A DNA stretch of 64,000 nucleotides, taken from Daejeonella sp. Its GTDB lineage: Bacteria; Bacteroidota; Bacteroidia; Sphingobacteriales; Sphingobacteriaceae. The notes beneath the pieces are model-generated. The model saw nothing but the letters and a program-made list of their open reading frames with translations. It had not been told where the DNA came from and searched no databases. Made by a program: the position numbers and the translations under genes. This document shows positions 43,797 to 50,951 of this stretch, piece after piece. The DNA is taken from assembly GCF_030695525.1 (NCBI RefSeq), contig NZ_JAUYSS010000008.1, forward strand, positions 1 to 64,000, given 5' to 3'. Each line of letters starts with the position of its first letter. Within the stretch, counting starts at the first letter, position 1.

Positions 43797-44768
43797 ATGA
43801 TTTTAGTTACCGGCGCTACCGGTTTTTTAGGTTCAGAATTAATCAGCCAATTGCTGCTCAGAGGGGAAAAGATCAGGGCAATCAAGCGGGATACTTCGCA
43901 GATACCCCAAATTTTAGCAGATAAAACAGATATCGAGTGGTTCAACGCTAATATTCTTGATTATTTTGCACTAAGCGAGGCTTTGGAAGGAATCAGTAGC
44001 GTATATCATTGTGCTGCGCTTATCTCTTTCCATCCTAAAGACAAAAAAGAGATGTTAAAAGTGAATGTTGAAGGCACTGCCAACCTCCTCAACATCTGCA
44101 TGGAAAAGCATATCAGACGCTTATTACATGTGAGTTCAATTTCGGCTATCGGTGAGAGCAAAAAAGGCAATCTGATCACAGAAAAAGATCATTGGGAGTT
44201 TGGACCGGGTCAAAGTGCTTATTCAATTTCAAAATATAAGAGTGAAATGGAGGTTTTCAGAGCGGTAGCAGAAGGCTTAAATGCCGTCATCGTAAACCCC
44301 TCAATCATTATCGGCAAAAATGCAGGTAAAGAAGGCAGTGGTCAGCTCTTTGAATCAATCAGAACCGGTCTGAATTATTTTCCGGGTGGAAGTTGCGGCT
44401 ATGTTGACGTAGCAGATGTTGCCGAAGCTATGATCCTTTTAATGGAAAGCAATATTTCTGACCAACGTTTCATAATCAATTCAGAAAACCTGACTTATAA
44501 AGAATTTTTTTCAAGCATTGCTATGAAACTTGGAAAAGAACCGCCTGCCATAGCATTAAAACCATGGATGATGTATATGGCCTGGCTGGTAAGTCGGGTA
44601 ATTACATTATTAACGGGTAGAAGATTTGGTCTAAATGCAGAAACCGTTCGCAGTGCATTCAAAAAGCAGACCTATTCTAATGAAAAAATAAAAAAGGCTA
44701 TAAATTTTAATTTTAAACCCGTTGATGAATCTATCAGCGAAATTTGCCTGCACCTTAAAAATAGTTAA
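43797..44768 (+). CDS. NAD-dependent epimerase/dehydratase (extended SDR)
   Basis: A cytoplasmic extended short-chain dehydrogenase of 323 residues. The Rossmann motif is MILVTGATGFLGSELISQLL, followed by VYHCAALISFHPKDKKEM, and the active-site YxxxK lies in AYSISKYKSEMEV. After that come VIVNPSIIIGKN and a C-terminal substrate domain. Sequences of this type act on nucleotide sugars, dihydroflavonol-like compounds or sterol-like substrates, and the substrate is not clear here. It is followed after 19 nt by the SerB fusion gene. Confidence 0.85.
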   Translation: MILVTGATGFLGSELISQLLLRGEKIRAIKRDTSQIPQILADKTDIEWFNANILDYFALSEALEGISSVYHCAALISFHPKDKKEMLKVNVEGTANLLNICMEKHIRRLLHVSSISAIGESKKGNLITEKDHWEFGPGQSAYSISKYKSEMEVFRAVAEGLNAVIVNPSIIIGKNAGKEGSGQLFESIRTGLNYFPGGSCGYVDVADVAEAMILLMESNISDQRFIINSENLTYKEFFSSIAMKLGKEPPAIALKPWMMYMAWLVSRVITLLTGRRFGLNAETVRSAFKKQTYSNEKIKKAINFNFKPVDESISEICLHLKNS

Positions 44769-44787: not shown

Positions 44788-46080
44788 TTGAAGCAGTTTT
44801 ATATCATCGATTTCGACAGTACATTTACCCAGGTAGAGGCATTGGATGAACTGGCACGTATCTCATTAATGAACCATCCCGACAGGGAGAATATTTATAA
44901 AAAAATTGAAGATCTGACCAATGCCGCGATGGAAGGTAAAATGTCGTTTCGTGAAAGCCTGACCGGACGAGTACAGTTGCTGGAAGCAGATCGCAGCCAT
45001 TTAAAGCAATTGGTTAGCCTGCTGAAAAAGAAAGTTTCTTCCTCTTTCTCCCGCAATAAAACATTCTTCAAAAAACATACAGATTCAGTTCTTATTGTTT
45101 CGGGTGGATTTAAAGAATTTATAACACCTGTTGTGCTTCCCTATCATATCCGAAAGGAAAATATTTATGCCAATACCTTTGTTTTTGATGAGGCTGGAAA
45201 GATTATTGGTTATGATGAAAATAACCCGCTTTCAAATGAAGGAGGAAAGGTTAAACTATTGAAAGAACTTGATCTAAAGGGTGATATCTACGGAATCGGC
45301 GACGGACATTCCGATTTTCAGCTGAAGGAATTTGGGATGATCAAAAAATTCTATGCTTTTACCGAGAATATCGAACGTAAGACTGTTGCTGAAAAAGCCG
45401 ATCATGTTACTCCTAGTTTTGATGAATTCCTGTATGTCAATAATTTACCCAGAGCCATTTCTTATCCTAAAAACAGGATTCTTTGTCTGGTGATAGGAGA
45501 TGTACCTGATCTGGCTATTCAAACTTTAAAAAAGGATGGGTTTTCTATTCGCCATAAAAAAACTTTTGAAGAAAAATATGTACCTGATGTTGGGATGATG
45601 CTTCTGGCTAATGGTGAATTGCTTGAAAGACAAAAACTGGAACGTGCAGCAAAACTGAAGACCATCGGATATCTTGGAAACAGTGAACCGAAGCTCTCTC
45701 ATGGCTTATGTACTGATATGGGCATTGTTATTTTTGACGATCCGAAGAACAACCCCAGGAATCCCGAATTTATTGCCAAAAGGATGATTAATTTTATCAA
45801 CCATGGCCATACTTATGTAAGTGCTAACTTTCCTAATCTTCAGCTTCCGCGGATTTCGGGAGCTCATCGTTTGATTCATATCCACAAAAATATGCCAGGT
45901 ATTATGGCTCAGATCAATAAGGTTTTTGCGGATCATCAGATCAATATTGTAGGGCAATACCTGATGACCAACCCAAGCATAGGATATGTCATTACTGATG
46001 TGAGTGATGAGTATGATAAAAAAGTTTTGAAGGCTCTGAAGCAGATTGATCATACAATTAAGTTCAGAATACTTTATTAA
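44788..46080 (+). CDS. serB: Phosphoserine phosphatase fused to NAD-domain-less SerA remnant with ACT domain
   Basis: A 430-residue fusion. Residues 1 to about 215 are a HAD-family phosphoserine phosphatase: FYIIDFDSTFTQVEALDELA (nucleophile Asp 8, Asp 10), SGGFKEFI (near 105) and GIGDGHSDFQL (near 172). From about 228 the sequence follows D-3-phosphoglycerate dehydrogenase. RILCLVIGDVPDLAIQTL and LERAAKLKTIGYLGN resemble the first half of its substrate domain. RMINFINHGHTYVSANFPNL resembles the second half. The NAD-binding domain between them is absent. Residues about 358-430 (LIHIHKNMPGIMAQINKVF, INIVGQYL, ending FRILY) are the SerA-type ACT domain, with the His and Asn residues that bind serine in E. 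coli SerA. I start at the TTG at 44788 (MKQFYIIDFDS); an ATG at 44722 overlaps the previous gene. Confidence 0.85.
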   Translation: MKQFYIIDFDSTFTQVEALDELARISLMNHPDRENIYKKIEDLTNAAMEGKMSFRESLTGRVQLLEADRSHLKQLVSLLKKKVSSSFSRNKTFFKKHTDSVLIVSGGFKEFITPVVLPYHIRKENIYANTFVFDEAGKIIGYDENNPLSNEGGKVKLLKELDLKGDIYGIGDGHSDFQLKEFGMIKKFYAFTENIERKTVAEKADHVTPSFDEFLYVNNLPRAISYPKNRILCLVIGDVPDLAIQTLKKDGFSIRHKKTFEEKYVPDVGMMLLANGELLERQKLERAAKLKTIGYLGNSEPKLSHGLCTDMGIVIFDDPKNNPRNPEFIAKRMINFINHGHTYVSANFPNLQLPRISGAHRLIHIHKNMPGIMAQINKVFADHQINIVGQYLMTNPSIGYVITDVSDEYDKKVLKALKQIDHTIKFRILY

Positions 46081-49439: not shown

Positions 49440-50951
49440 ATGTTTGAGCGGCCAATAAACTTAAAAGATTCATCAGAAACAACATTGCATGATGAATCAC
49501 GTCAGGGTGAAGCCTTAATTCTGGAAAACACCGGACAATATACAGGACGAAAACTTTACATAGAAAGTTACGGGTGTGCCATGAATTTTTCTGACAGTGA
49601 GATAGTTGCATCAATCATGCAGGGTATGGGCTTCGAAACAACATCTCAATATAAAGAAGCTGATGTCATTTTTATAAATACCTGCTCTATTCGTGACAAT
49701 GCTGAACAGCGGGTAAGAAACAGGCTGCGTGAATTTGGAGCGGCGAAAAGTAAACGGCCGGGAATGACCATTGGTGTACTTGGCTGTATGGCTGAGCGTT
49801 TAAAATCGAAATTTCTGGAGGAAGAGAAACTTGTTGACCTTGTAATCGGACCTGACTCTTATCGTGATTTGCCAAATCTGATCGCCAAATCAGATGACGG
49901 AATACGGGGCGTAAATGTTATTTTAAGCAGGGAGGAAACTTATGCTGATATCAGTCCGGTAAGATTGAACAGCAATGGCATCTCAGCCTTTGTATCCATC
50001 ATGCGCGGTTGCGATAATATGTGCTCATTTTGTGTGGTTCCCTTTACCCGGGGTAGGGAACGCAGCAGGGATCCTCATTCAATAGTTCAGGAAGCCCGTG
50101 AATTATTTAAAATTGGATACCGTGAAGTGATCTTACTGGGTCAGAATGTTGATTCTTACAAATGGGAAGCCTCACCCCAGCCCTCTCCAAAGGAAAAGGA
50201 GCCGGATATTTCCCTCTCCCCTCTCCTCCGGAGAGGGGTTGGGGGTGAGGCCCTAAACTTTGCAGGACTATTAGAACGTGTTGCCCAAATCGACCCGCTC
50301 TTAAGAGTACGATTCTCCACTTCCCATCCAAAAGATATAACCGATGAGGTATTGCAAACGATGAATAAGTATGAAAATATCTGTAATCATATTCATCTTC
50401 CGGTACAATCAGGTAACTCCCGGGTGCTGGAACTGATGAATCGTACCTATACCAGAGAATGGTATATTGAGCGGATTAATACCATTAAAAATCTCATTCC
50501 TGATTGCGCAGTTTCATCAGATATCATTATTGGATTTTGTACAGAAACTGAAGAAGAGCATCAGGATACGCTAAGCCTTATGGACTATGCCCAATTTGAT
50601 TTTGCCTATATGTACACCTATTCAGAGCGCCCGGGCACACTTGCCGCCAAGCGTTTTGAAGATGACATTCCGGAAGCTGTGAAAACCCGAAGGTTCAATG
50701 AGATCCTGAAAAAGCAGCAGGAATGCTCTTTGAACCGACTGCAGCAGCATATTGGCAAAACTCATAAAGTATTGATTGACGGATTCTCCAAGAAATCAGA
50801 TCAGGATTTTTCGGGCAAAAGCGAACATAATATCACAGTAGTTTTTCCGGTAAATCAAGCTTATAAAGCTGGCGACTATGTAGATGTCAGAATAGAACGA
50901 TGTACCCCGGCCACTTTAATAGGGAGAATTAAGGCTGATGTGGAGATTTGA
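49440..50951 (+). CDS. miaB: tRNA-2-methylthio-N6-dimethylallyladenosine synthase
   Basis: A radical-SAM methylthiotransferase modifying A37 of tRNAs that read UNN codons. The N-terminal UPF0004 domain keeps its three cluster cysteines ([10 protein letters not shown] near 46, [14 protein letters not shown]). The radical-SAM cluster is [10 protein letters not shown] (Cys 191, 195, 198). The C-terminal TRAM domain follows [12 protein letters not shown]. At 503 residues it is longer than usual because residues about 244-271 ([12 protein letters not shown]...RRGVGGEA) are a palindromic spacer repeat inserted in frame between GQNVDSYKW and [10 protein letters not shown]. The frame stays open, so the enzyme may still be active with a surface loop. 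Confidence 0.95.
50169..50251. repeat. Palindromic repeat inserted in frame in miaB
   Basis: The left arm GCCTCACCCCAGCCCTCTCC (50169-50188) and right arm GGAGAGGGGTTGGGGGTGAGGC (50230-50251) are inverse with small gaps. The type is the common C/G-rich bacterial spacer repeat; related sequence lies at 24440-24610. The flanks read GAA-GCC and GAG-GCC, as if two codons had been duplicated. Confidence 0.85.

Follow-up and report, generated by a model that had tools for sequence, protein, structure and literature searches.

A HAD-IB phosphatase joined to a SerA part without the NAD-binding domain is conserved family-wide in Sphingobacteriaceae

Domain composition of the protein and its locus

We analysed a stretch of 64,000 nt from Daejeonella sp. 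(assembly GCF_030695525.1, contig NZ_JAUYSS010000008.1, positions 1–64,000, forward strand), which is called the window throughout. An open frame on the plus strand at 44788–46080 encodes a protein of 430 aa, with the stop codon at 46078–46080. Translation probably starts at 44788 with a TTG codon, since the relatives become similar from this position on and, in the alignment, the first codon is either TTG (19 of 20 equal-length sequences, the window's included) or GTG (one of 20). A weak start codon at this position is conserved among the 20 compared sequences. An epimerase/reductase-like gene at 43797–44768 (best NCBIfam match HpnA, 183 bits, under the cut-off) ends 19 bases upstream of 44788. 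Of the named loci, 23 of 24 that lie outside the Chitinophaga clade have a homologue of this gene upstream, against none of the 8 within. Elsewhere in the window, a miaB gene (49440–50951; NCBIfam miaB, 432 bits) carries an in-frame insert at 50172–50252, which we take to resemble mobile REP-like repeats; both ends of the insert occur once each in the window when up to 3 mismatches are allowed.

All parts of the 430-aa protein lie on the plus strand in one frame. Residues 1–215 (44788–45432) form a HAD-IB phosphoserine phosphatase (PSP) domain, which keeps eight catalytic residues and matches NCBIfam TIGR01488 with 64.6 bits (cut-off 45). With 64.4 bits the domain stays under the cut-off of 144 bits of the serB equivalog family TIGR00338 and is therefore not called as a serB equivalog; two full fusions of PSP and SerA, L044 and L045, are likewise under this cut-off (64.4 and 71.5 bits). 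The linker that follows (residues 216–231, 45433–45480) ends in SYPKNRI and is common to full fusions. Residues 232–325 (45481–45762) represent the first half of a SerA substrate-binding domain (SBD) with the 3-phosphoglycerate (3PG) motif replaced, as judged from a profile of the fusions and from PRK11790. At the junction (45762/45763) the NAD-binding domain, which comprises 192–193 residues in full fusions, is missing, and the second SBD half (residues 326–359, 45763–45864) follows directly. The C-terminus (residues 360–430, 45865–46077) is a SerA-type ACT domain, assigned by the SerA profile and by alignment with E. coli SerA (1yba), in which H366, N368 and N386 are the equivalents of the serine site.

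From the start of the second SBD half to the end of the ACT domain the protein matches positions 308–410 of the PRK11790 (SerA) profile with E=1.1e-37 and residues 308–410 of 1yba with a sequence E-value of 7.9e-23. Taken alone the first SBD half is weak, with E=8.5e-05 for PRK11790 positions 3–111, 1.8–4.2 bits in the five PDB alignments listed and no Pfam match in the window's protein; the same half of the Pedobacter segetis protein (L029) passes the cut-off of Pfam PF00389 (26.5 vs 24.6 bits). Comparison with related proteins makes the assignment clear. A profile built from 30 full fusions, tested on residues 232–325 without the linker and with the database size set to 1e5, matched at E<1e-3 in 36 of 44 proteins of the same make-up (hereafter short proteins) and at E=3.4e-4 in the window's own, and none of 1000 shuffles of the window segment reached E<1e-3. 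With a profile of 23 stand-alone SerAs, E<1e-3 was reached in 11 of the 44 and the window's segment gave only E=1.2.

No match to PF02826 (NAD-binding domain) was found in the window protein. The SBD halves join at residue 325/326, and not a single residue falls into the NAD-domain columns in any of the 44 short proteins. For the whole protein PRK11790 is the best NCBIfam family (E=9.3e-42), yet the score amounts to 143 of 404 bits. The preliminary description had read the gene as a PSP joined to both SBD halves and a SerA-type ACT domain without the NAD domain; the profiles and the alignment of 44 proteins bear this out, and the SerA similarity which it expected for the C-terminal part is found in both of its segments. 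A sequencing or frame artefact was ruled out by 43 more short proteins with the same make-up.

Distribution in Bacteroidota

The nearest named relative is a protein from a Daejeonella MAG with 97% identity. A scan of genome contigs yielded 36 loci: 32 encode short proteins, mostly from Sphingobacteriaceae and Chitinophaga, and 4 encode proteins of about 627 aa with a complete SerA after the phosphatase. We then surveyed 392 genomes of the phylum, scoring up to 4 first-look candidates per genome, so that the counts are lower bounds. At least 96 genomes match at E≤1e-10; these comprise 13 short proteins, of which 12 belong to family f1 and one to f2, another 30 proteins that are full fusions, and 53 partial matches, the latter covering the ACT end only and/or having PSP in separate frames. 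Family f1 corresponds to Sphingobacteriaceae: Daejeonella oryzae, Hufsiella arboris, Pedobacter segetis and Pedobacter cryophilus (G392, G393, G394 and G400) recur there as G465, G407, G436 and G476.

Within this family, where up to 8 first-look candidates were scored per genome, a match was found in 194 of 201 sampled genomes, one per genome (E≤1e-10), and the 150 of these 194 matches that were listed all span from residue 1–4 to residue 430. Chitinophaga also has the short protein, with 8 loci known. The core-less architecture is real, conserved and family-wide in Sphingobacteriaceae.

We had expected SerA and SerC to be lost together with the short protein. This was refuted, as SerA is retained in all seven family genomes that lack a match, and so is SerC (two SerC matches being partial). 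A HAD-IB search of these seven genomes at E≤1e-4 gave a 224-aa frame in one and nothing in the other six; the same search was positive in two control genomes having the short protein. The six (G414, G423, G432, G444, G452 and G508) are small genomes of 1.8–2.3 Mb with serA and serC. They may possess an unrecognised phosphoserine phosphatase, or may take up serine and keep serC for another role. Alternatively, the gene may lie in an assembly gap.

Conservation of functional residues

We aligned 44 short proteins with 30 PSP-SerA fusions (26 from the 30 fusion genomes of the phylum survey plus L044–L047) and 23 stand-alone SerAs. In the phosphatase part D8, D10, E17, R61, S105, K154, D172 and D176 are kept in 44/44 short proteins and 30/30 fusions. 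Six of them are the residues of the HAD motifs (DxD Asp pair D8 and D10, S105, K154 and the terminal Asp pair D172 and D176), present in 44/44; E17 and R61 we take to be equivalent to the substrate-specificity residues E20 and R56 of M. jannaschii PSP. The linker residues S225, Y226, P227, K228, R230 and I231 are likewise invariant in short proteins (44/44) and fusions (30/30), and N229 is found in 44/44 and 23/30, respectively.

Within the ACT domain H366, N368 and N386 are kept in all 44 short proteins, all 30 fusions and all 23 SerAs, which agrees with the earlier claim that this domain retains the His and two Asn of the serine site. They correspond to H344, N346 and N364 of E. coli SerA (numbering from the 1yba alignment), which we take to be its serine-site residues; their role was reportedly described by Schuller in 1995. 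The SBD is altered at its former substrate site. The equivalent of E. coli Arg60, presumably the 3PG-binding residue, is R in 30/30 fusions and 23/23 SerAs and in 0/44 short proteins, where A (24), G (15) or D (5) are found. The surrounding motif reads GIRSKT in 28 and CIRSKT in 2 of the 30 fusions. The NAD domain of the fusions has 192 (14 proteins) or 193 residues (16 proteins) and contains the Rossmann and active-site motifs in 30/30. Because both the 3PG arginine and the NAD domain are absent, the short protein cannot be a dehydrogenase.

Divergence was compared between pairs with 65–80% identity in the PSP part. At this matched PSP divergence the first SBD half shows 45% identity in short proteins (572 pairs) versus 77% in fusions (61 pairs), and the ACT domain 69% versus 78%. 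Median dN/dS, determined from the 9 of 190 pairs in a usable dS range, lies between 0.010 and 0.039 across the parts, the ACT domain being lowest with 0.010. Every part of the short protein is under strong purifying selection. The former substrate domain has thus lost its original task, yet is still selected as protein, since dN/dS does not exceed 0.039 in any part despite the low identity.

Genes of serine synthesis in the same genomes

The window genome encodes a separate SerA of 318 aa, which contains both 2-hydroxyacid dehydrogenase domains, has no ACT domain and adjoins serC. Its best NCBIfam match is TIGR01327 PGDH with 301.8 bits, and SerC matches TIGR01364 above the cut-off (477.5 bits). 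The preliminary description had suggested looking for a separate full SerA; a separate SerA is indeed present, but it is short and without ACT. Searching the window genome with the whole 430-aa protein (E≤1) recovered just this gene and no further SerA-type ACT domain. The sole other match to the serB profile in this genome lies in a calcium P-type ATPase, and in 16/16 Sphingobacteriaceae genomes the short protein gives the sole serB-profile match at E≤1e-5 spanning the N-terminal DxD part.

A short SerA with 68–100% identity was found in 16/16 distinct Sphingobacteriaceae genomes, in open frames of 316–345 aa. In all of the best 30 short-SerA loci serC adjoins it; 17 of these loci belong to this family (one genome being represented twice) and 13 to genomes with a fusion. 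The situation is different in the Chitinophaga clade, where 7/7 genomes have the short protein and a separate, ACT-bearing SerA (frames of 414–439 aa). Five of these seven genomes (G403, G395, G396, G398 and G399) contain a further, better serB-profile match in a frame of 506–530 aa. In one more genome, G269, the short protein occurs together with a divergent SerA-like gene that bears an ACT domain (39.3 bits). Altogether, another SerA is present in 24/24 examined genomes having the short protein. Among 33 genomes with a full fusion, 13 also have a short SerA (≥43% identity) beside serC and 20 are without; a 35% match was seen in one of the 20 (G391). Among the examined genomes, absence of the NAD core is thus confined to those that have another SerA; as the genomes are related, this is a pattern rather than a statistical test.

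Origin of the core-less form

Full PSP-SerA fusions of Bacteroidota, such as L044 from a Cytophagales MAG and L045 from Pricia antarctica (about 627 aa), show the same order of PSP, linker, SBD and ACT. Over the aligned parts L044–L047 are 46–49% identical to the window protein, and the linker signature SYPK.RI is common to both; the fusions have the NAD domain of 192–193 aa and the 3PG arginine, whereas the window protein lacks both. The short protein therefore looks like a PSP-SerA fusion minus exactly the NAD domain. Loss of this domain from a complete fusion would be a simpler history than fresh joining of the parts, since full-length fusions exist in related lineages and have the same linker, and since the gap is exact; the direction of the change is our reading of these features. 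The preliminary description had the phosphatase acquiring the regulatory half of SerA. That half is present, but its acquisition need not be invoked, loss from a fusion being simpler, although the tree tests described below permit the alternative.

In the PSP tree a single branch (100/99) separates the 44 short proteins from the rest, and four fusions of family f47 stand next to them (98/95). The tree of SBD and ACT gives the same picture with 100/100 for the short proteins and 96/72 for their position beside the four f47 fusions. An ACT-only tree was not relied on, with the row of L052 badly cut (36% filled) and that of L137 very long. AU tests with the fusions constrained to one clade gave p=0.247 and p=0.215 and did not reject this topology, so that the trees alone leave a separate origin possible. 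Two stand-alone PSPs of family f24 are placed among the fusions in the PSP tree, as is one stand-alone SerA of f24 in the SBD and ACT tree. Given these placements and the AU tests the wider history is more complex than a single line of steps: either fusion splitting, transfer or more than one joining event took place as well, or the trees are wrong at these points.

In G351 a PSP frame of 235 aa and an ACT-bearing SerA frame of 412 aa lie side by side on the same strand and contig, PSP first, an arrangement that may resemble the condition preceding fusion. Extant genomes show what may be stages of this process: PSP next to SerA (G351), the fusion, the fusion together with a short SerA, and the core-less fusion together with a separate SerA.

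Possible role in the control of serine synthesis

We consider it fairly probable that the protein serves the cell as its phosphoserine phosphatase, that it descends from a PSP-SerA fusion by exact loss of the NAD domain, and that L-serine bound at the ACT domain regulates the phosphatase. According to this proposal the phosphatase part would be active, and the old substrate domain would have become a scaffold between phosphatase and ACT. The ACT domains would pair, and the SerA-type serine site would form at the dimer interface; L-serine, the product of the reaction, would bind there and change the phosphatase activity, most likely lowering it. The brake that serine exerts on the pathway would then act at the last step, not at the first, because the separate SerA has no ACT domain. 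SerAs without ACT are described as not regulated by serine (Grant 2018, PMC6300728). The same work gives type II SerA as a tetramer with NAD-NAD and ACT-ACT interfaces; the short proteins have no NAD domain. In favour of the proposal, the PSP and serine-site residues are invariant, the short protein is the sole SerB-like match over the DxD part in the 16 family genomes, and all its parts are under purifying selection. Serine feedback on the phosphatase, as suggested in the preliminary description, is plausible. Several observations point the other way. The seven family genomes without a match retain the two upstream enzymes, six of them having no HAD-IB hit at E≤1e-4, and the window protein scores under the serB equivalog cut-off. 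The Gly336-Gly337 hinge, through which serine inhibition is transmitted in E. coli SerA according to the same article (PMC6300728), is absent in 44/44 short proteins; it is also absent in 30/30 fusions and 23/23 SerAs, so that its absence is a trait of the lineage. The fast divergence of the former substrate domain makes tight allosteric coupling less likely, and retention of the ACT residues may be partly structural, as fusions and SerAs have them too.

The second SBD half and the ACT domain align end to end with E. coli type II SerA (1yba and 1psd), with H344, N346 and N364 matched; unlike that enzyme, the window protein lacks the NAD domain, an Arg60 equivalent and the Gly336-Gly337 hinge, and it is joined to a phosphatase. 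In SerB2 of Mycobacterium, two ACT domains presumably precede the phosphatase; the window protein has one C-terminal ACT domain of the SerA type, with the SerA substrate-domain remnant between. SerB2 is likewise a PSP with ACT domains and is reported in PMC10564941 to be inhibited by L-serine, which provides a precedent for serine inhibition of a PSP with ACT domains; the resemblance is in the way of working only. Fusions inside the serine pathway are also described for oomycetes and brown algae (PMC5715807, PMC2705460); these join SerA with SerC, that is, other enzymes, and the accessible parts of the two articles describe no domain loss. ACT-regulated PSPs and PSP-SerA fusions are known kinds, of which the core-less form is a new variant. 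By title or the start of the abstract, none of the literature matches listed describes the fusion or the core-less form in Bacteroidota, subscription journals and supplements being outside the scope of this search. Gene-fitness re-annotations in Pedobacter and Echinicola are said to exist that may name such genes. For Pedobacter, the accessible text on GapMind deals with arginine and a DapE gap and not with SerB, and that of Price 2018 mentions neither Pedobacter nor Echinicola.

Instead of sensing serine, the SBD-ACT part could be a module for assembly or stability, which dimerises the phosphatase while serine has no effect. The fast evolution of the SBD remnant would fit, as would mammalian SerA, whose ACT domains are kept and no longer bind serine; however, the ACT residues of that enzyme have changed along with the loss of serine control (PMC6300728). 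Here all three residues are unchanged throughout and the ACT domain has the lowest dN/dS of all parts, and we regard a purely structural module as rather unlikely. We give a low probability to the possibility that serine or another amino acid at the ACT domain activates or retunes the phosphatase, or that another ligand is sensed. ACT domains bind various amino acids, and with the hinge absent the E. coli enzyme is no guide to the sign of the effect; on the other hand, the three kept residues match the serine site of that enzyme.

The protein might also act in trans and pass serine feedback to the separate SerA by mixed assembly, as the preliminary description had considered. Both proteins would work in one pathway. 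The serC-linked SerA is short in the window genome and 15 other Sphingobacteriaceae, and the window's SerA thus offers no ACT to pair with; together with the lack of a second match in the genome this makes ACT-mediated mixed assembly unlikely in this organism and action in trans very improbable overall, although such assembly is possible in Chitinophaga, whose ACT-bearing SerA (7/7 genomes tested) could pair ACT to ACT. That SBD-ACT is a decaying relic without function, as the lost 3PG arginine (44/44) and the faster divergence of the first SBD half than in fusions might indicate, is hardly credible and was rejected on dN/dS of about 0.04 or lower in all parts (9/190 pairs usable) and on family-wide retention, with full-length reach to residue 430 in the 150 matches listed.

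Returning to regulation of the phosphatase by serine, we tentatively extend it to a shift of serine feedback, throughout the family, from the initial enzyme of the pathway to the final one, which may or may not hold with almost equal likelihood: the fusion would have lost its dehydrogenase core, the ACT-less SerA would perform step one, and the kept SerA part would control the phosphatase and possibly report serine to SerA via the substrate-domain remnant.

Core-less proteins can be misread as SerA, PRK11790 being the best match, which calls for caution in annotation. If the proposed role is true, a regulatory domain has outlived its catalytic domain and taken control of another enzyme of the same pathway, and this yields a testable prediction for the control of serine synthesis in Sphingobacteriaceae and Chitinophaga.
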